Source: a virus
Length of the DNA stretch: 64,000 bases
Strand: one strand, 5' to 3'
IMG/VR virus record: IMGVR_UViG_3300050015_000600
Location: 1 to 64,000 of that record
Shown here: one piece after another, positions 8,926-48,851 of the stretch
Position numbering within the stretch: position 1 is the stretch's first letter
How the letters are laid out: each line of letters opens with the position of its first letter
The notes under the pieces: generated by a model
What the model was told of the DNA's origin: nothing
What the model saw: the letters and a program-made list of their open reading frames with translations, nothing else
The model's database searches: none
Program-made: the position numbers and the translations under genes

Positions 8926-9634
8926 ATTGCATAAAATTCGGACTCCCAGCACTCATAATATATTCACTTACTGCATACATCAAAAAACAGCGTTCGTAAG
9001 GAGCCAATAGAGGATTTACCCTCGTGCTCTCAAACATAGTCTGAAATGTTGTATCTAGTGTTGGTATGCTATTTGTATTAAGATCATACCAGGCATCCCA
9101 ATATGTATAGTAGTTGAATACAGGTGTACTCGTCCCTGCTGTCCATAGCGGTGTGCCAAAGGCTGGAATATCCGGTTTATAAAATATCAGTATCTCATCA
9201 GGTTCGCAAGGCTCCATGCCTTTGCTAAACCTGATTTCGTTATCGTGAATTGAATAACGTGTACTGTCGTCATTATAGGCGTAACCGCGGTGATAATCTA
9301 ATAATTTTGTATCACCATAAAGCCCGTTATACATTTTTTCGTTATACGCGTCCCTCTCTTTCACCCCCATCGGAACACACAGACGCCCATTGCCATTGGC
9401 ATCAACGTCTTTTATCTGTATGATTCGTAAATAATCAACAGGAATCGTAAAGTACGGCTCCTGCGCGGCCTTAAGAAATGTTATTTTCTTCTCTAAATAC
9501 TCAGTCTCCCTCTGAAACTGCTGCATGCCGCGGGTAAATGACCGCATAAAGGTTACTTCGTCTGTCGGAAGTTTCTCCGTGTATAGACGCAGCGCAATTT
9601 GATAATCTGAATATAATTCTCTAAATGTTGACAT
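8825..9634 (-). CDS. head-tail adaptor / ring-like protein
   Basis: 269 residues beginning MSTFRELYSDYQIALRLYT. It is the fifth and last of a run of 220-270-aa proteins downstream of the capsid genes. All open with a helical N-terminus followed by a beta-rich middle (GMEPCEPDEILIFYKPDIP here) and a helical C-terminus, the general build of podovirus adaptor or tail-ring proteins. It ends inside the lysozyme gene. The adaptor call is by position and resemblance within the series, not by a recognised motif. Confidence 0.75.
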   Translation of the reverse strand: MSTFRELYSDYQIALRLYTEKLPTDEVTFMRSFTRGMQQFQRETEYLEKKITFLKAAQEPYFTIPVDYLRIIQIKDVDANGNGRLCVPMGVKERDAYNEKMYNGLYGDTKLLDYHRGYAYNDDSTRYSIHDNEIRFSKGMEPCEPDEILIFYKPDIPAFGTPLWTAGTSTPVFNYYTYWDAWYDLNTNSIPTLDTTFQTMFESTRVNPLLAPYERCFLMYAVSEYIMSAGSPNFMQYEKRYKEEIEFAKLFLPEYSHHSSRDYNISPWA

Positions 9635-18901: not shown

Positions 18902-20353
18902 TTAGTATATTGCCGCCACGGATGCCGTTTCATAAGCACCGTAAAGTAATTTATCTCTTAGCCATTCTATACCGTCGTTTTCGGATTTATCGTCTGTTGG
19001 ATTGAGTGCTGCGTTACGTATTATTTCCTGCATGGTATATGTCGGTAGTTGCAATCCCGATATTACTGCATAACGCAAAGCGTCAGCCGCATCGTCAGCA
19101 CCCTTTGTATCCAAATCCATCTTTTTCTTATTATCGGTAGAGGCTACGTATTGTAGCGAAGGTAGAGTAGTAATTAGCGTCTGGCAGTCTTCGAAGAAAT
19201 ACATCAAAGATTCTTTGCCTATATGTTGTTCGTGGTCTAACCATTGCTTTAATAAAGTCCAGCCCGTCACGCGGTCATTGCTTGCCGGTATTAATGGCAT
19301 ACCCTCTCCCATAAACAGCATTGCCGCGGACTGATCCGCCTCGCTTCTTCTGTTGCCATTGCCGTACATACTAGGGTCGCAAAAATAACCCTGGATTTCC
19401 TCATCCCCCGATAATTCTTTTATGTCGCGTATAAATGTTTCTATTGAATGCGAACTTGTGTATTCACGGTAAACATAGGTTTTAAAATTTTCTGGATTCT
19501 GAGCCAGCCATAAGCACACTGTCGGATGCTCTTTGGTAAAGCCCATGTCTATGCCGCATATTCTTAACCAATCGTCCGGTATGTCGAAAGCGGGAATAAC
19601 GTGAATGTTTGCGTTGAACTCTGTAAAATATTGCCCAAAGAAAACATTCCAATCGCCTTCTAACCATGCCCTGCGCTGATGTTCCGGCAACGCTTGTAGT
19701 TTTAATATATAATCAGGGTCATTGTCACAAACGCTTGGATTATCGTAAGCGGAACTAAAAACGTATTTAAACTTATCTTTAAAAGTCAATTCCGCTGGCG
19801 ACCAACGGCTATAGTCGGGACTGATAAAATGCGTCTTAAACCAATGGTCACTCCTGCCACCTGGATTGCCCGTCATTAAAAGACTAGGAACAAAGCCAGG
19901 GAATCTGTCTGTCTTACGTAAAGAACCGGTTATCTTAACTATAGTGTCCTCTAAATGCGTATTCGCCTCATCAAGCACAGCAAACTGAAACTCAATACCT
20001 AATACTTTTTCCAAATCCTTCGCCGAATCTAACGGCTGAAACTCTATCATTGACCCATTCTGAAAAACAAAAGCGTTGTTCTTGCGGTCTAATCTATATC
20101 CAAAGATTTTTTCAGGGAACATCCATTTCTTGCCGATGAAGTTTTTTCTTAATTCCGGCAGGGTTCTACGAATGACAACACAAGTTAGTCCTGGATACCT
20201 GCAACACAATACCATACAAGCAGCTAACGCCAAATAGCTTTTCCCACCTGACCTCGCACCTCCAAAAAAGATATAGTAGCCAAGCCCAATCATATCCATG
20301 ACTTGCCTTTGTTTCGGATGAAGTTTAATATAATCGCTCATCTTCTTAGCCAT
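18902..20353 (-). CDS. terL: terminase large subunit
   Basis: 483 residues; the ATPase-nuclease that packages DNA through the portal. Walker A is GGARSGGKS at about residues 31-39, Walker B AVLDEA at about 125-130, and the coupling motif LLMTGNP near 160. The C-terminal RNase H-fold nuclease shows GIDMGF (Asp near 269), CDPSMYG (Asp near 326) and an Asp-rich end GADDAADALRYAV. The preceding 95-aa gene may be the small subunit; their start and stop overlap. Confidence 0.95.
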   Translation of the reverse strand: MAKKMSDYIKLHPKQRQVMDMIGLGYYIFFGGARSGGKSYLALAACMVLCCRYPGLTCVVIRRTLPELRKNFIGKKWMFPEKIFGYRLDRKNNAFVFQNGSMIEFQPLDSAKDLEKVLGIEFQFAVLDEANTHLEDTIVKITGSLRKTDRFPGFVPSLLMTGNPGGRSDHWFKTHFISPDYSRWSPAELTFKDKFKYVFSSAYDNPSVCDNDPDYILKLQALPEHQRRAWLEGDWNVFFGQYFTEFNANIHVIPAFDIPDDWLRICGIDMGFTKEHPTVCLWLAQNPENFKTYVYREYTSSHSIETFIRDIKELSGDEEIQGYFCDPSMYGNGNRRSEADQSAAMLFMGEGMPLIPASNDRVTGWTLLKQWLDHEQHIGKESLMYFFEDCQTLITTLPSLQYVASTDNKKKMDLDTKGADDAADALRYAVISGLQLPTYTMQEIIRNAALNPTDDKSENDGIEWLRDKLLYGAYETASVAAIY

Positions 20354-37590: not shown

Positions 37591-37766
37591 TAGCCTATCC
37601 CCATGCTTTCGTAAGTAATATCTTTAGGCTCGTAGCCTATATTAATCAATCTCAATAATAACCATTCTTCTAATGAAGATAAGTCCGAAGTAGAGCGTGG
37701 TGACACGCCCCCTTCTACTGCATATTCTTTGAGAATCTTGACTGCTTTTTCTGCTTTAATATTCAT
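37590..37766 (-). CDS. hypothetical protein, 58 aa
   Basis: ATG at 37766; encodes MNIKAEKAVKILKEYAVEGG and continues through EEWLLLRLINIGYEP to a TAA at 37590. It overlaps the genes on both sides by 1-4 bases. A small helical protein of unknown function. Confidence 0.62.
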   Translation of the reverse strand: MNIKAEKAVKILKEYAVEGGVSPRSTSDLSSLEEWLLLRLINIGYEPKDITYESMGIG

Positions 37767-40426: not shown

Positions 40427-41586
40427 AAATAGAATGTAAAAAGAATAAACAAAACAAAGAAGATTAAGATTATAATATCCTCGCCTTGTTAAGGCTCGAA
40501 TATTATGTAGAAACAAGTCTCCAGCCTATGAGAAAATGAGACTATCACATGACCATCATATAGCAACTATTTGTAAAATAACAATATCCTACAACTAAAG
40601 CGCATAAATGACACTATAAAAATTATAAAAATGATAGATCGAAGTGTTTTTGCTAGGGAGAAAAGAGACAGGGATGATTTGTATGATTATAGCTAAGTCT
40701 ATATAATTGATGCAGTTACTATCTAAAAGGTGACAATTCTGATTCTCTCTGTGTGGGTACCCCTCCCCTCCCGCCATCGCGATTGCCGTCCTATACCCCA
40801 CCTTAAAACTTCTACATATTACATTAAAATGTTTTTGTTCAGGTGCTAAACAATATATACAAACATATAGCATGCATAATGGTATTATCATGCTATATAA
40901 ATAAAATTCAATAACTTACATTAATATTCAATGCTATTGGGTATTCGATTTAGCACGTTGTCATTCATATATTACATTACTACGTATTTGTTACGTTTGT
41001 TATTTGTAAACAAAACAACGTTATAAATCAACCACTTAGAGTAATTCGCCTGGATTGCGTGTCATTGCGTGGATCGTTATACAATGTATAGACCGACTTT
41101 TCAAGTTTTGTTCGTTGGTGTCCCGATTTGTTGGCGTCCCTCCACTTACCCCTACAAACCAACAACAAACCCTTGTAATACATACACTTACTCTTATCAT
41201 AATTATACGATATAATCTTAACATATTGATATTTATACACTTACTATATTTAGCACGTTTATACTACTACAAACTGTCAGATTTATTACACACTTTTATA
41301 TATTTGTTATTGTTTGACTACTTTTTTGTTGATTATTTAGTATTTTTCTTGTTTTCTTCGCATATTATATTTGCATATGTGAAATAAAAGTGTTAATTTT
41401 GAATTATAAAGTTGATGCAGTTTCGAACAATTGATTTTATGCAGTTCTTTTAAAATTTATTTCTGCGAATAAGATATATTTTTGATTTTGCAAAATACAT
41501 TATCGGAACCATTGCCCAGGTGAGTAGCTTTATTGAGTCTAGTAAATCACTCCTGAGACGTTTTTATTAATCTTTCGAATATTTAT
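40427..41586. other. long AT-rich non-coding region, possible origin or control region
   Basis: About 1.2 kb with no gene I can support between the divergent small-gene blocks. It contains an imperfect dyad at 40472-40506 (ATAATAT...GCCTT/AAGGC...ATATTAT), a G-rich minus-strand run at 40760-40772 with a GGGTACCC palindrome, paired direct repeats (ATTGCGTG twice at 41054-41071; GTTGG(T/C)GTCCC twice, 16 bases apart, at 41114-41140; TTTAGCACGTT twice, 300 bases apart, at 40949 and 41249) and recurring CACTTA. Such iterated short repeats in AT-rich DNA suit an origin or operator cluster; unproven. Confidence 0.5.
41366..41373 (+). promoter_or_regulatory. possible -7 element of the rightward small-gene unit
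   Basis: TATATTTG matches TANNTTTG exactly, but no TTG stands at the usual 20-base distance, so this is only a candidate. A rightward promoter is expected upstream of 41647 because none is seen between the seven gene groups. Confidence 0.35.
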
Positions 41587-41646: not shown

Positions 41647-42039
41647 ATGAAAACGAATTATGAACTTGAAGCGATTAAATTTGCTAAAAAATACGGTGTT
41701 AAATTAACCGTAATTGGTGACTCTATCAATAAACGTTATTTCTTAGGCGATAAAGAAAATAGAGAGGTATTCACGTTAAGACTAACAAGGAATAAAAAAC
41801 AATATACTTTCACATTTGGTCAAAGTATTGTAAACGGTGGAAAAACACCAACGATGTATGATGTTTTAGCTTGTCTAACTAAATACGATGTTGGGGATTT
41901 TGATGATTTTTGTAGTGAATTTGGTTTTTCTGCTTACGAAAAAAGTTCTGTTAAGATTTACGAAGCAGTATGCAAAGAATATAAAGCAGTACAACGTTTA
42001 TTTGGTGATATTTATGAAGAATTGCAGGAAATAGAATAA
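41647..42039 (+). CDS. hypothetical protein
   Basis: 130 residues from the ATG at 41647 (MKTNYELEAIKFAKKYGVKL), chosen because AAAAGGTGTATT precedes it. The centre (FTLRLTRNKKQYTFTFGQSI) is a beta domain and the rest is helical with FDDFCSEFGFSAYEKSSVKI. Small proteins of this type are common in accessory regions of Bacteroidota mobile DNA. First gene of the rightward unit. Function unknown. Confidence 0.7.
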   Translation: MKTNYELEAIKFAKKYGVKLTVIGDSINKRYFLGDKENREVFTLRLTRNKKQYTFTFGQSIVNGGKTPTMYDVLACLTKYDVGDFDDFCSEFGFSAYEKSSVKIYEAVCKEYKAVQRLFGDIYEELQEIE

Positions 42040-42197
42040 TGAGTGTTATTCCAATAAAAAACGGCTCAAAATTTATCTGTACTTATAGAGTAGATAATAT
42101 TTTGATAAAAAACACATATAGTAATATGAGTATTACTGAAGCAAAGTTTTTATTTGCTGAATACTGCATGAAATTATTAGTTAAATATAATGTTTAA
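42039..42197 (+). CDS. small protein, 52 aa, paralogue of the gene at 42507
   Basis: Starts on the stop of the previous gene (TAATG) and encodes MSVIPIKNGSKFICTYRVDN and so on. The second half (YSNMSITEAKFLFAEY) closely resembles YSGYSINEIRVLFAKV in the 47-aa protein at 42507, so the two are paralogues. A beta hairpin followed by one helix, as in small phage regulators. Function unknown. Confidence 0.62.
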   Translation: MSVIPIKNGSKFICTYRVDNILIKNTYSNMSITEAKFLFAEYCMKLLVKYNV

Positions 42198-42208
42198 CGG
42201 TCTTACTT

Positions 42209-42257
42209 AACGTGGTTACATGAGTGTTTTAAACAAGTTCGTTGCTTGTTCCACGTT
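42209..42257 (+). ncRNA. tRNA-like element 1 (acceptor stem plus T-arm)
   Basis: Acceptor AACGTGG (42209-42215) pairs with CCACGTT (42251-42257), 7 bp. T-arm AACAAG / CTTGTT encloses the 7-nt loop TTCGTTG. The 16 nt between them replace the D and anticodon arms. The loop begins TTCG like a T-loop but lacks the A expected at position 58. The ATG of the next gene follows 40 nt later. Confidence 0.6.
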
Positions 42258-42297
42258 CAAAATAAAATGTTTATTTAATAAAATTAAGGTATTTATT

Positions 42298-42507
42298 ATG
42301 TTACAAGTACAAACTAATCAATTAGTTAATGATAATTGTTATTATCACTATGCAAAGGCATTATCAAATTCTGCTTGTTTTGATTTAGTAGAATTTATCA
42401 ATCAATTCCAGGATAAAAAAGCAGTTATAAATTATATATTAGAATGTAATTTAAGCGACAAAGTCAACCGTTATATTAAACAACAATTTAATGAGGAATT
42501 AAACTAA
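42298..42507 (+). CDS. hypothetical protein
   Basis: 69 residues from the ATG at 42298 (MLQVQTNQLVNDNCYYHYAK). An ATG at 42220 is in frame but lies inside tRNA-like element 1. Helical, with EFINQFQDKKAVINYILECN. Overlaps the next gene start. Function unknown. Confidence 0.66.
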   Translation: MLQVQTNQLVNDNCYYHYAKALSNSACFDLVEFINQFQDKKAVINYILECNLSDKVNRYIKQQFNEELN

Positions 42508-42650
42508 TGACTATACAACAAAATTTAAATGGTACAATAACAGTTTCGACAGTTATATTTAATCAGCACGTGAAACGTATTTATTCGGGCTATTCAATTA
42601 ATGAAATTAGAGTACTATTTGCAAAAGTAATCAAGGAATATTTAAAATGA
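42507..42650 (+). CDS. small protein, 47 aa
   Basis: Starts on the preceding TAA (TAATG). Encodes MTIQQNLNGTITVSTVIFNQ and then a helix with a YSGYSINEIRVLFAKV motif shared with the 52-aa protein at 42039. Ends ATGA-coupled to the next gene. Function unknown. Confidence 0.6.
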   Translation: MTIQQNLNGTITVSTVIFNQHVKRIYSGYSINEIRVLFAKVIKEYLK

Positions 42651-42778
42651 AAGCACAAACCAGAAATAGATTAGATTTGTTAAAGTATGGAATGCTTTTT
42701 ATTATCAGTGCTATGGTGTTATTATTTTTAGCATATAAAGCAATTTGTCTTTTATCTTTTGTTTATCGTGGCTTTTAA
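42647..42778 (+). CDS. small single-span membrane protein, 43 aa
   Basis: ATG overlaps the previous TGA. Encodes MKAQTRNRLDLLKYGMLFII and a hydrophobic stretch to LLFLAYKAICLLSF. Basic start, one membrane span. Its stop lies inside a GTGGCT/AGCCAC hairpin. Function unknown. Confidence 0.6.
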   Translation: MKAQTRNRLDLLKYGMLFIISAMVLLFLAYKAICLLSFVYRGF

Positions 42779-42850
42779 GCCACTTTAAAAGCCCGTCAGG
42801 ACGTTTTTAAGACGTTAGGCACATAATTTACACGTTATTAATTATAACGT
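42768..42850 (+). other. hairpins downstream of the 43-aa gene
   Basis: GTGGCT-TTTA-AGCCAC spans the stop codon (42768-42783) and ACGTTAT-TAATT-ATAACGT lies at 42832-42850. Neither has a T-run, so they look like RNA stability or processing structures rather than terminators. tRNA-like element 2 follows. Confidence 0.4.
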
Positions 42851-42857
42851 TTGTAAA

Positions 42858-42917
42858 ACCGTTGTAAAGTGGTTACAATTGTATTTATACAATTTCAGTT
42901 TCGATTACTGAAACGGT
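42858..42917 (+). ncRNA. tRNA-like element 2 (acceptor, one arm, T-arm)
   Basis: Acceptor ACCGTT (42858-42863) pairs with AACGGT (42912-42917). The T-stem TCAGT/ACTGA holds the canonical loop TTCGATT (42900-42906). A 7-bp hairpin AATTGTA-TTTA-TACAATT (42877-42894) stands where the anticodon arm would be. The D-arm is reduced to 13 nt containing GTGGTTAC, resembling a D-loop. This is the most tRNA-like of the set. The next ATG is 41 nt downstream. Confidence 0.68.
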
Positions 42918-42958
42918 GCAAAATTAGAATTTATTATTTATTATTAGGATTATTTAAA

Positions 42959-43594
42959 ATGAAAAAATCATTTAGCAAAACAGCAAACGGGAATTATAAA
43001 GTTAATACATTCGTTCCCGTATTCAATGGGTATTACGATAGCATCTTTGAAGGCGACAGCGTCGAAGAAAATGAAATGGAATACTTCAACGAACAAAGAC
43101 TTGAAGCGGGCAAAACAGAAATTAAGGACTACGAGCTATTCAAATTTGATTTAGAAACTTTTTATAAAGAAACAACTGTACAAATTGAGAATATAGTAAG
43201 TTTTTGGCTTAAAAAATTAGGATTTATTACAACTTCCCGTTTTCAAAAATTGTCAAGTCCAAAAGAATACAATTTTTACAATGATTCTATCTGGGTTGAC
43301 TATGAATTGACAAAAGAGAACATAGGGAATATTAAAAAGTATCTGAAAAGTGATATTGATAAATTCCAAACTTATTTAGACGAAAATTACATAGCACGTG
43401 ATGGATTTATTCCATATTATTCTACTTATTTAGGTGACTGGTTAAACAACAAAGCATTATTTGATTCTCATCAATTAGGAGCAATTTTAAATTTCATACT
43501 GCTTAATGAAGAATACTCCGAAAATGATATTTATGAAGAATTGGAAGTTAATGTGGAATTAACAAATTACGATGAATTGTGGAATATGGAATAA
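42959..43594 (+). CDS. antirestriction (ArdA-like) protein candidate
   Basis: 211 residues from the ATG at 42959 (MKKSFSKTANGNYKVNTFVP); upstream in-frame ATG codons lie in or before the tRNA-like element. The protein is very acidic, and it has an FVPVFNGYYDSIFEGDSVEE opening. An acidic, elongated single-gene unit in an accessory region would suit a DNA mimic such as an antirestriction protein, but no ArdA motif was established, so that call is tentative. It stands alone between tRNA-like elements 2 and 3. Confidence 0.55.
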   Translation: MKKSFSKTANGNYKVNTFVPVFNGYYDSIFEGDSVEENEMEYFNEQRLEAGKTEIKDYELFKFDLETFYKETTVQIENIVSFWLKKLGFITTSRFQKLSSPKEYNFYNDSIWVDYELTKENIGNIKKYLKSDIDKFQTYLDENYIARDGFIPYYSTYLGDWLNNKALFDSHQLGAILNFILLNEEYSENDIYEELEVNVELTNYDELWNME

Positions 43595-43601
43595 AAACAA
43601 A

Positions 43602-43662
43602 AGCCGTGTTACTATGTATATTAATATATGTTAGTTTACAAAATTCGCAATTTTGCACGGCT
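43602..43662 (+). ncRNA. tRNA-like element 3
   Basis: Acceptor AGCCGTG (43602-43608) with CACGGCT (43656-43662), 7 bp, plus an extra A-T pair outside. T-stem CAAAA/TTTTG with 7-nt loop TTCGCAA (43644-43650). Acceptor and T-stem meet with no extra base, exactly 7+5 bp as in tRNA. The 30 nt between them are AT-rich and can fold on themselves. The next ATG follows 40 nt later. Confidence 0.7.
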
Positions 43663-43702
43663 TCAAATGTATTATTTATAATTATTATTAGGGAAAAGTA
43701 TT

Positions 43703-43885
43703 ATGAAAAAGCTATATTATGGCCAATATAACGTTGGCAATGCTAAATATATAGTAACTTTTGTAGATGAAACGCATTTGCATAAAGACGGCAGTTTGCA
43801 ATACGGAATAAAAACATTCACAAACAAGCAATTATTTAACCAATTTATAATAGCGTTGCATAAAGACGGCTATAAGGAAAGATAA
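43703..43885 (+). CDS. hypothetical small protein
   Basis: 60 residues beginning MKKLYYGQYNVGNAKYIVTF, beta-rich with a helical end (NKQLFNQFIIALHKDGYKER). AGGGAAAAG precedes the start. First of three genes in this group. Function unknown. Confidence 0.64.
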   Translation: MKKLYYGQYNVGNAKYIVTFVDETHLHKDGSLQYGIKTFTNKQLFNQFIIALHKDGYKER

Positions 43886-43889
43886 AACT

Positions 43890-44177
43890 ATGAAAAAAGA
43901 TACTGAAATTACGAAAGTTATATTTAGGAAGTTCAAACCTACTGATGACTTTGCATGCGATATTATTGCTTTGTTTCCTGAAGACAGTTACGCAGGAAGA
44001 TACACTACTCTTGCTTATGTTCACGTTGGACAGCATTTTGAAGTTGATTACAAAACTGTTATTAAACAATCAGTTCCAGCAACTGAAAACGAATACAAAG
44101 ACCTAAAAACCGAACTTGAAAACGGTTTTGATTATAACTTTAAAGTATTAAAAAGAGCAAAAATCATTTATAAATAA
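43890..44177 (+). CDS. hypothetical protein
   Basis: 95 residues beginning MKKDTEITKVIFRKFKPTDD, with DIIALFPEDSYAGRYTTLAY in the centre. This phrase is reminiscent of small conserved proteins of Bacteroidota conjugative and phage elements. Function unknown. Confidence 0.66.
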   Translation: MKKDTEITKVIFRKFKPTDDFACDIIALFPEDSYAGRYTTLAYVHVGQHFEVDYKTVIKQSVPATENEYKDLKTELENGFDYNFKVLKRAKIIYK

Positions 44178-44189
44178 CGGAGTTAAAAA

Positions 44190-44420
44190 ATGAACGCAGT
44201 AATTAAGAAAATTAACGACGACGGTACAACGGCAGAACATAAGCCGTTTATTTACAAAACAAAACAGTATAAATTGCGTAAAACTATTTATAAATACGCA
44301 CAAATTTATTCGGATAAGTGGAAGTCCGACGTTATGATTTATGTACATTACAATTATGATCCAGAAGGTGTTTTCTCTAAAATGATTAAATACCATTATC
44401 AAGAAAAATTATTTTCTTAA
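44190..44420 (+). CDS. hypothetical small basic protein
   Basis: 76 residues beginning MNAVIKKINDDGTTAEHKPF, Lys- and Tyr-rich, ending MIKYHYQEKLFS. It stops seven bases before tRNA-like element 4. Function unknown. Confidence 0.64.
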   Translation: MNAVIKKINDDGTTAEHKPFIYKTKQYKLRKTIYKYAQIYSDKWKSDVMIYVHYNYDPEGVFSKMIKYHYQEKLFS

Positions 44421-44426
44421 AAGAAC

Positions 44427-44465
44427 AGCGGAGAATGGTTCTAAGGTTCGATTCCTTGCTCCGCT
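44427..44465 (+). ncRNA. tRNA-like element 4 (39-nt minihelix)
   Basis: Acceptor AGCGGAG (44427-44433) pairs perfectly with CTCCGCT (44459-44465). T-stem TAAGG/CCTTG (one T.G) holds the canonical T-loop TTCGATT (44447-44453). The two helices abut as in tRNA (7+5 bp). Only AATGGTTC joins them, keeping a D-loop-like TGGT that could contact the T-loop. The next ATG is 38 nt downstream. Confidence 0.78.
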
Positions 44466-44503
44466 CAATATGTATTTTATTATTATTAATTAGAGGTTTC
44501 AAG

Positions 44504-44737
44504 ATGAAAAAGAACAAAACTACTCAAGCTATTAGCATAATAGCAAATAATGGCGGATTAGATTTAAGTCGTATTCGCCGGAACTATATGGCAGACAGTC
44601 AATATAGTTTGGCAAATAAAAATTGCCGCTTCAAGGGTTCTTATGGCGAATACCTAAAAGATGCAATAAAAACTATGTTGCCAAAAGAATTAGAACGTGT
44701 TGCAAGTCGTGTTGCAAGTTATTATTTAGGGGTATAA
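44504..44737 (+). CDS. hypothetical protein
   Basis: 77 residues from the ATG at 44504 (MKKNKTTQAISIIANNGGLD), after AGAGGTTTCAAG; an upstream in-frame ATG lies inside the tRNA-like element. Basic and helical, ending ELERVASRVASYYLGV. Function unknown. Confidence 0.65.
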   Translation: MKKNKTTQAISIIANNGGLDLSRIRRNYMADSQYSLANKNCRFKGSYGEYLKDAIKTMLPKELERVASRVASYYLGV

Positions 44738-44739
44738 TT

Positions 44740-45108
44740 ATGAAAGTATTAGAATTTAGCCCACAGAACAATCTGAATGTTAACCATAGAAAGGAAAATT
44801 ACTTCCAATGTGAATATTCAATTGTTGTATTTGACGAAAAAACAAAGAAGTTTTCTACTCCTGTAGTATTGCGTATATATATTACTCCGAGCATAAATTA
44901 TGCTTGCGTCTGGGGTATAGAAAAACACTTTGAAGGCTCATTCAAAGGTTCAGCATTCCAAAGTACAAATAGCACGGCTCTTAATGCTTTAATAATTGCT
45001 GGTTTTGTCTTTGAAGACGCTTGGAGCAGTTCAATTGAAGACGTTATGTCCGCTATAGCCGAATGTTTTGGTTACAAGAATTATTTTATTCATAAAGCTA
45101 ATCCATAA
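44740..45108 (+). CDS. hypothetical protein
   Basis: 122 residues from the ATG at 44740 (MKVLEFSPQNNLNVNHRKEN), two bases after the preceding stop. Beta-rich N-terminus (YSIVVFDEKTKKFSTPVVLR), then helices. Function unknown. Confidence 0.65.
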   Translation: MKVLEFSPQNNLNVNHRKENYFQCEYSIVVFDEKTKKFSTPVVLRIYITPSINYACVWGIEKHFEGSFKGSAFQSTNSTALNALIIAGFVFEDAWSSSIEDVMSAIAECFGYKNYFIHKANP

Positions 45109-45120
45109 GGAAGAAAAAAA

Positions 45121-45318
45121 ATGACAGTCACTATTAATCTAAATATGACCAAAGACGAAGCTATGTTAGTTCTAACGGCTTTAAATGACAAATTAGGCAG
45201 TTTGTATAACGATATGGATTATTATCTTAACCGTAAAACTAACAATGCAAAGTATAGTGAAGCAGTGTTTTATAAAGGCAGAATAGAGAAGTTAATAGAA
45301 GCGTTTAGCGTCTTGTAA
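45121..45318 (+). CDS. hypothetical small helical protein
   Basis: 65 residues beginning MTVTINLNMTKDEAMLVLTA, a single helical pair (KLGSLYNDMDYYLNRKTNNA) ending in a leucine-rich helix. AAGGAAG before the start. Function unknown. Confidence 0.64.
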   Translation: MTVTINLNMTKDEAMLVLTALNDKLGSLYNDMDYYLNRKTNNAKYSEAVFYKGRIEKLIEAFSVL

Positions 45319-45322
45319 CGTA

Positions 45323-45365
45323 AAAATAGCATGGTATTCGGGAGGTTCAAATCCTCCCCTATTTT
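45323..45365 (+). ncRNA. tRNA-like element 5 (43-nt minihelix)
   Basis: Acceptor AAAATAG (45323-45329) pairs with CTATTTT (45359-45365). T-stem GGGAGG/CCTCCC (6 bp) holds the canonical loop TTCAAAT (45346-45352). The linker CATGGTATTC keeps a D-loop-like TGGTA. The next ATG is 38 nt downstream. Confidence 0.75.
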
Positions 45366-45403
45366 CTAAAGTATTATTATTAATTTATTATTCGAGGTAT
45401 AAA

Positions 45404-45637
45404 ATGAAGTTTCAAAAAAGTACTAAAAAAGAGTGGTACGGAATGTTTTTGTATTCCGTAGAAGGCGAAGAGCCGTTATGCAATTATTACTCCGACCCAA
45501 AAATAGCCGTTAGAGAAGCTAAAAAGTGGTCAAAGGATTTAGAAGGCGAACAATATATAGAAGTTTGGAAACGTGATAAAAATGGCAATTATGGAGATTC
45601 TGGCACACCATTGTACAAAAGCGACGAGGTGGCATAA
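45404..45637 (+). CDS. hypothetical small protein
   Basis: 77 residues beginning MKFQKSTKKEWYGMFLYSVE, with IAVREAKKWSKDLEGEQYIE. Start/stop overlap with the next gene. Function unknown. Confidence 0.65.
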   Translation: MKFQKSTKKEWYGMFLYSVEGEEPLCNYYSDPKIAVREAKKWSKDLEGEQYIEVWKRDKNGNYGDSGTPLYKSDEVA

Positions 45638-46038
45638 TGGAAAAATTGAATATAACACAACTTGACGGCAATTTAATATTGCATAACGGCGATTATCAAT
45701 ACTCTAACAAGCCATTAAAAGAATGGGATTGCGATAATTTTGTAGAGTATATTAAAGACTACTCAAATATGGATTGGAATTGTAGCGATAATTTGTTATG
45801 CTATTTATATGATATTGATTATCTTAATTACATACCATCAAATTATGCACCTATATATCTATATGGCGTGTGGCAGGTATTAAAAGAACATATCGAAAGC
45901 AATGAAAAATATGTATTAAGTCCAAGACACAGGACTTTGCAAAAACGTCGTATCAATAAATGGAATAAACAAGCCGAAGCGAACAGACAGGAATTTTTAT
46001 GTAGATTAAAAGAAATAAGAGAGGAAAGCAATGATTAG
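45637..46038 (+). CDS. hypothetical protein
   Basis: 133 residues beginning MEKLNITQLDGNLILHNGDY; Asn/Asp/Tyr-rich first half, strongly basic helical end (LQKRRINKWNKQAEANRQEF). Function unknown. Confidence 0.66.
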   Translation: MEKLNITQLDGNLILHNGDYQYSNKPLKEWDCDNFVEYIKDYSNMDWNCSDNLLCYLYDIDYLNYIPSNYAPIYLYGVWQVLKEHIESNEKYVLSPRHRTLQKRRINKWNKQAEANRQEFLCRLKEIREESND

Positions 46039-46279
46039 AAATATAATATTAAACTTTATATCATTCGGCGTGTGGTATATATTCTTAGGTGCTTATATGC
46101 CGATGATATTCAAATGTAGTCTAATTGCAAATATGGTAGGGACGTTTTCAGCGTTCCTACTGTGGAATTTAGGCGACTGTGTACGCAATATGCGGTTTGC
46201 TCGTTTGGCGTGGGGTTACTTACCGCAAAAACAAATTAAAGAAATAGTTCATTATCAAAATACAGGCGAAAGATTGTAA
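46031..46279 (+). CDS. small membrane protein
   Basis: 82 residues with two hydrophobic segments (IILNFISFGVWYIFLGAYMP and CSLIANMVGTFSAFLLWNL), then a basic cytoplasmic-type tail. Overlaps the previous gene by 8 bases. Function unknown. Confidence 0.66.
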   Translation: MIRNIILNFISFGVWYIFLGAYMPMIFKCSLIANMVGTFSAFLLWNLGDCVRNMRFARLAWGYLPQKQIKEIVHYQNTGERL

Positions 46280-46282
46280 AAC

Positions 46283-46327
46283 ATTGCTTTAAGCTATGCC
46301 CCTTTCGAGGGGTATATTTAAGTCAAT
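46283..46327 (+). ncRNA. hairpin at the place of a sixth tRNA-like element
   Basis: An imperfect hairpin of about 17-20 bp (ATTG...CAAT outside, TAAG.TAT with ATATTTA, then GCCCC/GGGGT) ends in the loop TTTCGA. There is no D-region gap, and the loop has 6 nt, so it is a degenerate or related form. It stands in the same position relative to the next ATG (27 nt). Confidence 0.5.
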
Positions 46328-46354
46328 TTTTATTATTATTTAGAGGGTAGAATT

Positions 46355-46612
46355 ATGAAAAAAGCATTATGTATATGCAATATGTGTGGAGCTTTGTTAA
46401 TAGACGAAAATCCACAAGTAGATGCAATGGAATATGAATTAACAGGTGCAGAACAAGAAATGGAATATCATTACGACAGGGAGGATGGTTCGTATTATGG
46501 GTGTCCTAATTGCCATACAGACGGTTATTTAACCGATAATTTGACAAGTGAAGCTCATCTTGGGTTGTATAACCACATGAAACATAATTGCGAGGCGACT
46601 TATGCAAACTAA
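46355..46612 (+). CDS. zinc-binding small protein
   Basis: 85 residues. MKKALCICNMCGALLIDENP and later YYGCPNCHTDGYLTD give CxxC pairs for one zinc, separated by an acidic helix. It overlaps the integrase gene by 11 bases. Could be a regulator for the recombinase; inferred. Confidence 0.7.
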   Translation: MKKALCICNMCGALLIDENPQVDAMEYELTGAEQEMEYHYDREDGSYYGCPNCHTDGYLTDNLTSEAHLGLYNHMKHNCEATYAN

Positions 46613-47474
46613 AATTAATGAATTTCTTGCAATGCCAACACGTAAATCTATGGTAATTTCCGATGATTATAAAAGATTAGTCACTTCAACTTTTGAAAAG
46701 TATCAAAAGAAGTTTGAAACGTTGTCAAGAGCGAATATAATAGAGTATCTAAATACTTCCGATTATTCGCAGGGTTCTAAATATACAATAGCAACTACTT
46801 TATGCAGGTTCGGGCGTGAGTTCGATCTGCTTAAAGAAAATGATATTAATACTATCAAGCGTTGTTTCCCAAAAGACCGCAAAGAATGGTCGAAAGAAAA
46901 CCTAAAAGCAAATGACCTTGACACAATACTCGATACGATTATTAAGCGTAGAAAGCTCCCTGTTACTAATTTAAGGGACGCATTGTCTATTGCATTGCTT
47001 AGTTCATTCGGAATGCGTGTAGGGCAGTTAATAGCCATGCAAAGAGATGATATTAGAATAATTGAGGATAAAATCGTTGTCGCTCTTATCCGTCAAAAGC
47101 ATAATAAGTTTGACCGCTCTCAAGGCGATGTGTTCAAAGTGTCGTTGCCTATGAATTATAAAGTCGGACAATATAATCTTAAAACATTATTGCTGAGATA
47201 CAAAGAATTATTACCACAGGACAGTCCGGCTTTGATATACGGCAAAACTTTCGACGCTCCTATGACCACCGCCGGAATGCGCAAGGTTATTAAGAAAATA
47301 GGTGAAGATATACACATGCCTGATCTACACCCTCATGTTTTTAGGCATTACGTAGGAACTAAATTAACTATAGAATACGGTGTAGAAGTTGCTTGCGCTA
47401 TGCTTAATCATGCGGCTATTAATACGACTAAAACATATTTGAATAAAGAATCAATTTTAGATAAAATTAAATAA
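46602..47474 (+). CDS. int: tyrosine recombinase / integrase
   Basis: 290 residues. The N-terminal SAM-like core-binding domain (about 5-100) is followed by the catalytic domain with R139 (FGMRVGQL), a Lys at 166 or 169 (RQKHNKF), H245-x-x-R248 (HPHVFRHYVG), H270 (MLNHAAIN) and Tyr279 (TKTYLN). It catalyses site-specific strand exchange, for phage integration or for dimer resolution. No arm-binding domain is evident. It is expressed from inside the tRNA-punctuated unit, and a tRNA gene lies 1.3 kb downstream. Confidence 0.92.
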   Translation: MQTKINEFLAMPTRKSMVISDDYKRLVTSTFEKYQKKFETLSRANIIEYLNTSDYSQGSKYTIATTLCRFGREFDLLKENDINTIKRCFPKDRKEWSKENLKANDLDTILDTIIKRRKLPVTNLRDALSIALLSSFGMRVGQLIAMQRDDIRIIEDKIVVALIRQKHNKFDRSQGDVFKVSLPMNYKVGQYNLKTLLLRYKELLPQDSPALIYGKTFDAPMTTAGMRKVIKKIGEDIHMPDLHPHVFRHYVGTKLTIEYGVEVACAMLNHAAINTTKTYLNKESILDKIK

Positions 47475-47998: not shown

Positions 47999-48032
47999 AG
48001 CCGAGCCTTTTAAACGAGGTTCGGCTTTTTTT
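47999..48032 (+). terminator. intrinsic terminator of the rightward small-gene unit
   Basis: AGCCGAGCC pairs with GGTTCGGCT (9 bp, one wobble), 10-nt loop, followed by seven T. It ends the unit that begins at 41.6 kb. Confidence 0.88.
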
Positions 48033-48203: not shown

Positions 48204-48339
48204 GGCAAAGTGGCGGAAATGGTAAACGCACGGGCATGATTAGCAGGAAGCTACTACCGTACATAGTGCGGATAGATATATCCAAGACACGTAGCTGAAA
48301 TAAATACTATACTTGCAGGTTCGAATCCTGCCTTTGCCC
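48204..48339 (+). tRNA. tRNA-like module with an extended internal region
   Basis: Acceptor GGCAAAG (48204-48210) with CTTTGCC (48332-48338), extended outside by G-C pairs; D-arm GCG..CGC with a TGGTAAA loop; T-stem GCAGG/CCTGC with loop TTCGAAT. These match a leucine-type tRNA. The space between D- and T-arms is about 85 nt, some 45-50 nt too long, and holds AGCTAC/GTAGCT, CCGTAC/GTGCGG and GGATA/TATCC pairings. No convincing anticodon arm could be drawn. It may be a tRNA with an insert or a tRNA-like domain of a larger RNA. Confidence 0.55.
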
Positions 48340-48454
48340 CTAAATAGTTCTTTGAATAAAAACCCATCGGGAGATTAGAAAACCTGAATAAAACAAATCG
48401 GGGAGTAAGACGACACGCTGTAAGCTGTTAGGGTCTCCCTTGAAAATGTAATAA

Positions 48455-48527
48455 ACCCCGCAAGTACTTTACGATATATTGCGGCAAATAATGTAGTTGT
48501 TTTGGACATACTCGCGGGGTCTCTTTT
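48455..48527 (+). terminator. terminator-like fold with a competing hairpin
   Basis: ACCCCGC (48455-48461) pairs with GCGGGGT (48514-48520), extended by AGTA/TACT, before CTCTTTTT. The 5' arm can instead pair locally (CCGCAA 48458-48463 with TTGCGG 48479-48484). The two folds exclude each other, so read-through into tRNA-Ser may be controlled. Confidence 0.5.
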
Positions 48528-48592
48528 TCAGAGGGTGGTTGCCTTAGGCTAAGCTATGATTGAGCAAGGTGCGTACTAACAGGACTGTAGAA

Positions 48593-48683
48593 CAGCGACA
48601 GATAGAAAAGTGTTGATACGTTCACGAACAGGCTATAGACTGGACTACCCTATCCTTTAGATGCAGTTTGATTCTGCTCGCTG
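48593..48683 (+). ncRNA. possible second tRNA-like module
   Basis: CAGCGA (48593-48598) pairs with TCGCTG (48678-48683). GCAG/CTGC holds a T-loop-like TTTGATT. GATAG pairs with CTATC inside. There is no clear D or anticodon arm. Confidence 0.35.
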
Positions 48684-48739
48684 ACCGAGATTTGGTAAAG
48701 ACTGTAAATCGTACGTAACAGCAGGGGTCATTTATTTTT

Positions 48740-48822
48740 GGAAGTGTCGCATAATTGGCATTGCATCTCCCCGCTAAGGAGACGACCTTCGGGTTGTACA
48801 GGTTCGAATCCTGTCGCTTCCA
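48740..48822 (+). tRNA. tRNA-Ser(GCT)
   Basis: Complete class II cloverleaf: acceptor GGAAGTG/CGCTTCC, D-arm GCA..TGC with loop TAATTGGCAT, anticodon arm TCTCC/GGAGA with loop CCGCTAA (anticodon GCT at 48773-48775), variable arm CGACC-TTCG-GGTTG with a UUCG tetraloop, and T-stem ACAGG/CCTGT with loop TTCGAAT. Discriminator A, no encoded CCA. It would decode AGC/AGT codons. Confidence 0.93.
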
Positions 48823-48851
48823 CAAACAATTTAAGAGATTTATGAATGATA

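Follow-up and report, generated by a model that had tools for sequence, protein, structure and literature searches.

Mitochondrial transcripts are punctuated by transfer RNAs (tRNAs), which lie between the genes of one transcript with the gene ends abutting them. A comparable arrangement occurs in a 64,000-nucleotide stretch of phage DNA (the window), positions 1 to 64,000 of the 76,486-base IMG/VR virus record IMGVR_UViG_3300050015_000600, where tRNA-like elements built from an acceptor stem and a T arm stand between groups of small genes in one operon. The mitochondrial elements are working tRNAs, whereas those of the window have no anticodon arm, keep little of the D arm, encode no tRNA, and are only presumed to be cleaved. 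Judging from their pairing, their placement and their counterparts in other phages, we lean towards regarding them as ribonuclease P (RNase P)-type processing signals that split the operon transcript into messages with defined ends.

A review of RNase P substrates (PMC11143913) confirms a premise of the original prediction for this locus, that the enzyme accepts an acceptor-plus-T-arm minihelix: hairpins of acceptor stem, T stem and T loop are substrates in vitro. The AT minihelix and model hairpin substrates described there are synthetic and carry an RCCA end, whereas the phage elements are natural and carry an end of the CUA or CAA type. The natural phage substrates named in the same review are the C4 antisense RNA of P1/P7, M3 RNA, and T4 dimeric tRNA precursors without CCA; one T4 tRNA precursor resembles the elements described here in having UAA instead of CCA. 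All of these are single regulatory RNAs or real tRNAs, whereas the mini-tRNAs form intergenic arrays between protein genes. Many small genes of cluster K mycobacteriophages are likewise preceded by elements of unknown function, the extended start-associated sequences (ESAS), described as 17-bp inverted repeats around a spacer of 4-13 bp (PMC3203893). Phage TM4 gave no match when scanned with the covariance model R2 introduced below; ESAS were otherwise compared by description. The original prediction knew of no described phage system of this kind, and the open-licence literature yielded no earlier description; the elements are also absent from Rfam 15.

Elements in the gaps of one operon

The small-gene operon occupies 41647-47474, consists of seven gene groups, and ends in a gene for a tyrosine integrase (46602-47474); it lies on the + strand, as do all of its features given below. 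Gaps within groups measure -11 to +12 nt and contain no element. Each of the six gaps between groups, 75-180 nt long, contains one, five being tRNA-like (e1 to e5) and one a UUCG hairpin, and an element is present in every gap of more than 50 nt (41.6-47.5 kb). The five minihelices had been proposed at just these positions, and a fold scan with a Markov control finds all five. The scan, run on both strands of the entire record, called for an acceptor of 6-7 bp, a T stem of 5 bp and a 7-nt loop TTC[AG]NNN. Its matches were e1 to e5 and one more + strand site at 37,728, and the 6-bp setting added a single weak - strand place near 74.2 kb. In the control, each of thirty Markov-shuffled sequences gave 0-2 matches, mostly 0.

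The first element, e1 (42209-42257), is a minihelix with a 13-bp stack, the loop TTCGTTG, a linker of 16-17 nt and the tail TCAA; a stop codon precedes it by 11 nt and the ATG at 42298 follows after 40 nt. Element e2 (42858-42917) pairs the acceptor ACCGTT with AACGGT and contains a D-arm-like GTAA-AGTGG-TTAC, an additional hairpin, the T loop TTCGATT and the tail GCAA; its upstream stop codon is 79 nt away and its downstream ATG (42959) 41 nt away. Element e3 (43602-43662) has the acceptor AGCCGTG/CACGGCT, loop TTCGCAA and tail TCAA, with a stop codon 7 nt upstream and the ATG at 43703 40 nt downstream. The last two, detected both by the fold scan and by R2, are shorter. Mini-tRNA e4 (44427-44465, 39 nt) has the linker AATGGTTC and the T loop TTCGATT, then CAA, and lies 6 nt past a stop codon and 38 nt before the ATG at 44504. 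Mini-tRNA e5 (45323-45365, 43 nt) has the linker CATGGTATTC, T loop TTCAAAT and tail TCTA, 4 nt past a stop codon and 38 nt before the ATG at 45404. Linkers measure 16-31 nt in e1 to e3 and 8-10 nt in e4 and e5.

An A/T-rich leader of fixed length follows e1 (42258-42297), and equivalent leaders follow the others (42918-42958, 43663-43702, 44466-44503 and 45366-45403). These leaders are 82-90% A+T with an AGG-like motif at the end; TATTATTATTA...GAGG follows e4 and e5. The distance from element to ATG is thus constant at 38-41 nt (40, 41, 40, 38 and 38) despite element sizes of 39-61 nt. The sixth gap (46,280-46,354) holds a long hairpin with a UUCG loop at 46289-46321, folding at -14.1 kcal/mol, 33 nt before the ATG at 46355.

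Taken singly, the elements are modestly stable (z of -1.5 to -2.1 for free energy), and the case is therefore built on pairing pattern, placement and comparison. None of e1 to e5 was called as a tRNA gene by Rfam (RF00005 tRNA) or ARAGORN, even at permissive thresholds. The tRNA genes farther downstream, at 48.2 and 48.7 kb, were both called by Rfam and one by ARAGORN.

That the gaps lack promoters and terminators was part of the original prediction, and it holds. Between 41,201 and 48,000 there is a single exact -7 box TAnnTTTG with TTG/TTTG at the -33 spacing, at 41370-41401. This site, TTTG-N20-TAATTTTG, precedes the first gene and, by its consensus, is the putative sole operon promoter, of Bacteroidota type. 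Sigma-70-like matches in the operon region were no more numerous than expected by chance and were not used. A strong intrinsic terminator at 47999-48026, the sole one with a T tract, closes the operon after its last gene. The promoter and terminator scans found neither a Bacteroidota-type promoter nor a T-tract terminator in the gaps between groups. Two other hairpins returned by the terminator scan within the operon are the T arm of e5 and the UUCG hairpin, consensus matches with no U tract; an intrinsic terminator combines a G+C-rich hairpin with a U tract, and no U tract lies 3' of the elements.

Related elements in other phages

The element family was defined by a 7+6 bp stack, a GGTTC-like linker, a TTCRANT loop and a significant model score. 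A survey of IMG/VR with the pattern ATGGTTC-N(0-8)-GGTTCRANTCC, in which pairing was not required, gave at least 120 loci; the pattern favours the ATGGTTC linker, and family counts are lower bounds. Among the matches listed, 21 of 121 sequence-only matches had a paired 6-bp acceptor in register, compared with a mean of 0.6 and a maximum of 3 when 5' and 3' parts were taken from different matches. Elements of 39-47 nt form arrays of up to five copies: L224 carries five in 3 kb, and several each are found in L216/L259, L242, L230/L231/L273, L228 and L246. Across this wider family the conserved linker is (A)ATGGTTC. The D-loop-like TGGT noted earlier in two of the window copies corresponds to this linker. 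A second small hairpin lies immediately 3' of the element in several phages.

The covariance model R2 was built from ten elements, all from other phages. In 512 kb searched it recovered e5 with 37.6 bits and an E-value of 6e-7, and e4 with 31.0 bits and an E-value of 5e-5; the tool itself describes its E-values as rough. At E <= 0.01, R2 matched two copies in Mycobacterium phage MaryV as well as crAssphage cr131_1, and found no match in T4, crAss001, DAC15, phi14:2, TM4, HTVC115P, B40-8 and others. It also found none in Cellulophaga phage phi4:1, despite the 22 tRNAs of that phage, which has one protein in common with the operon (32%). A search of 296 genomes from the phylum of a Bacteroidia MAG (metagenome-assembled genome) gave one true copy, and ten contigs that carry the element elsewhere had no Rfam match at all. 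An earlier model, R1, made from e4 alone, was discarded as too narrow, since it matched tRNA T arms, and locus L277 was rejected as an ordinary terminator.

Elements that precede homologous proteins differ by compensatory changes. In L216 and L259, whose downstream proteins are identical, the acceptors read AGGATAG:CTATCCT and AGGGTAG:CTACCCT. In L242 and L224 (downstream protein 53% identical) they read AACCTGA..CAGGTT and AGCCTGA..CAGGCT, and a U-A pair of the T stem is replaced by C-G; between L216 and L242 (42%) two T-stem pairs are reversed. A count of 100% pairing in the set A12 was dropped as evidence, having been circular because the copies were picked by pairing, and is superseded by the sequence-only and orthologue tests. 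Homologous elements with compensatory changes, which the original prediction had proposed to look for, thus occur in other phages by the sequence-only, R2 and orthologue comparisons, and the sequences show the family recurring in arrays in phages of unrelated hosts.

MaryV, a Wildcat-group mycobacteriophage, has a leftward small-gene array with gaps of about 90-120 nt (L275, 6000-10000). In most of these gaps a tRNA-like or simpler hairpin comes first, followed by a second hairpin and a conserved ribosome-binding motif; some elements are short (GGGGTGAATGGTTCAACCGGGTTCGATTCCCGGCACCCC), and in others the linker is longer and bears its own hairpin. Two of the MaryV elements lie at 66,166-66,204 and 69,115-69,156 (-) of MN585992.1. 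Long and short forms occur together here as they do in the window, which supports, but does not prove, the placing of e1 to e3 in the same class as e4 and e5.

The phage and other tRNA-like features

The record matches PHROGs families for terminase, portal and DNA primase/helicase, and encodes the tyrosine integrase. Terminase and capsid profiles identified family relatives (L007, L117-L123 and the MAG contigs L142-L145); an IMG/VR search with the integrase gave no match. Besides viral contigs, MAGs labelled Ignavibacteria, Bacteroidia and Kapabacteria contain capsid relatives, so the host probably belongs in or near Bacteroidota. Record L003 (IMGVR_UViG_3300050014_000168) is near-identical to the structural-gene part of the phage and ends short of the operon. 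In L125, a family relative with a 60.7 kb record, a tRNA-Lys is followed, at about 19480-19870, by a structured RNA of about 200 nt with a tRNA-like acceptor, CCCAAGCG/CGCTTGGG, flanked on both sides by the motif TTAGTTCTTAAA.

Just past the operon, window positions 48204-48339 hold a 136-nt tRNA-like gene, scored by Rfam as a tRNA at 37 bits and missed by ARAGORN, whose D and T arms are normal and whose anticodon arm is replaced by a long structured insert. The next roughly 400 nt (48340-48735), highly structured and apparently non-coding, begin with a boxA-like TAGTTCTTTGA and precede a tRNA-Ser (48740-48823).

A search for a T arm followed by the TATTATTATTA leader found real tRNAs before genes and no mini-tRNAs. 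Six unrelated viral contigs (L086-L091) have a tRNA T arm directly before a TATTATTATTA...AGG leader and a gene, and ARAGORN calls a full tRNA at that site in all but L090; a full tRNA before such a leader and gene is the same arrangement with a real tRNA. From a fold scan of these loci, L086 also has a reduced tRNA with an encoded CCA (9028-9066, - strand) within a cluster of nine tRNAs, possibly an intermediate between a tRNA and a mini-tRNA. A longer reduced form lies between a tRNA-Val and a gene in crAssphage cr131_1. In Klebsiella phage vB_KpiP_JZBo1 (L279, 1702-3246), 1.5 kb of unannotated sequence includes four tRNAs called by ARAGORN and further tRNA-like stretches with a GGTTC arm. 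Mycobacterium phage Asterius (L280, about 2480-2525) has an unannotated reduced tRNA-like element immediately 5' of a tRNA-Pyl; its T-arm match recurs at a similar position in many mycobacteriophage records of comparable size.

Placement, proposed processing and other explanations

Of 53 copies, 48 have a stop codon, closing an upstream frame of 40 codons or more, that ends within -20 to +12 nt of the first base of the element; the figure for random positions is 15%. In the window, too, the elements occupy same-strand gaps next to stop codons, 4-11 nt past them except for e2 (79 nt). A start codon with a preceding Shine-Dalgarno-like motif occurs within 110 nt downstream in 32 of the 53. For the 3' tail, positions were numbered as in tRNA by counting 12 bp from the T loop in 56 copies, e1 to e5 included, of which 39 have the 13-bp stack. 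Position -1 carries A in 40 copies and position 73 carries U in 32; C74 and A76 are each present in 40 of the 56. At position 75, 49 copies have U or A and just 3 have C. The tail therefore reads as NCCA with position 75 changed, N73-C74-(U/A)75-A76.

We propose that the elements are dedicated tRNA mimics, each with an acceptor stem, a T arm and a short D-loop-like linker, that punctuate polycistronic phage transcripts. Transcription from the promoter near 41.4 kb would continue to the 48.0 kb terminator and yield a single operon RNA, in which each mimic would fold at the 3' edge of a gene group and be cut by the tRNA-processing machinery of the host. RNase P would most likely cut the 5' end of the mimic, 12 bp from the T loop and right after the upstream stop codon (for example at 42209/42210, 43601/43602, 44426/44427 and 45323/45324), and its 3' end may be produced by ribonuclease Z (RNase Z) or by trimming. 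Such cuts would fix both the 3' end of the upstream message and the 5' end of the downstream one, which would begin either with the mini-tRNA, acting as a stable cap, or with the constant short leader; where a second hairpin follows, it would structure that 5' end. Several observations fit processing: the elements sit next to stop codons and at a constant distance from the following start, one putative promoter and one terminator bound the operon, and tRNA-like traits are conserved. The predicted cut coincides exactly with the end of the stop codon in 7 copies and spares the upstream stop in 36 of 50. Pairing and placement in the gaps likewise support the earlier description of tRNA-like acceptor-plus-T-arm elements punctuating one operon of seven gene groups.

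Several results weigh against processing by RNase P. The predicted cut removes all or part of the upstream stop codon in the other 14 of the 50 copies. In an RCCA end the RCC pairs with RNase P RNA, yet C75 is nearly always missing from the 56 tails, which as a set lack this 3' motif; pairing of A-1 with U73 can also shift the cut. All five window loops begin with TTC, as originally described, but those of e1 (TTCGTTG) and e3 (TTCGCAA) have no A at tRNA position 58, and these two elements are accordingly degenerate. The family model recovers e4 and e5, while e1 to e3 gave no match to model R3 in an unfiltered scan of the window and e1 was missed by R2 as well, so that e1 to e3 are grouped with e4 and e5 by fold, position and tail only. 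Finally, the nearest relatives, those at family level (major capsid protein 33-43% identical; two are 60.7 and 69.5 kb), carry no elements. The element is therefore not a family feature of this phage, and its conservation, as far as these sequences go, spans unrelated phages and not the phage's own family.

The plain UUCG hairpin that takes the same slot in the sixth gap, and the second small hairpin directly 3' of the element in several phages, are what would be expected of uncleaved stabilisers of mRNA, hairpins that block exonucleases or protect ends made by another nuclease. A stabiliser would not need the T-loop sequence, the GGTTC linker or the CNA tail, all of which are conserved across unrelated phages, and we consider this explanation unlikely. 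Somewhat more doubtful is a role in translation, in which the element would act on the ribosome or on an aminoacyl-tRNA synthetase and control translation or reinitiation of the next gene. The elements stand between a stop codon and the following start codon at a short, constant spacing, and a ribosome terminating upstream would cover part of the element; the leaders after the element, however, differ completely between phages (A/T-rich here, a hairpin and Shine-Dalgarno motif elsewhere), and thus show no shared connection with the start codon.

It is more improbable still that the elements are relics, functionless tRNA genes decaying in intergenic space, even though the CCA-bearing mini-tRNA of L086 sits among nine real tRNAs and the reduced form of cr131_1 between tRNA-Val and a gene; relics would lose their pairing, yet compensatory changes preserve both stems, and arrays of up to five share a linker and tail and are placed at stop codons. 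A DNA-level role, as recombination sites or as mobile repeats spreading cassettes of small genes, would suit arrays between small variable genes in an operon ended by an integrase, but element orientation follows the genes, and the copies of any one phage vary in both stems yet stay paired, leaving no common repeat to recombine and making this explanation very improbable.

Processing by host tRNA-maturation enzymes thus remains the reading we prefer for this operon. Its extension, that the mini-tRNAs with an N-C-[U/A]-A end are one RNA family serving as general cut-and-cap signals across phages of several bacterial phyla, seems to us evenly balanced between right and wrong. If true, phages would borrow tRNA maturation as a general means of dividing operon transcripts. 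This would help explain how long arrays of small genes are expressed from few promoters, and the elements would be natural minimal substrates of RNase P and RNase Z with an unusual 3' end.

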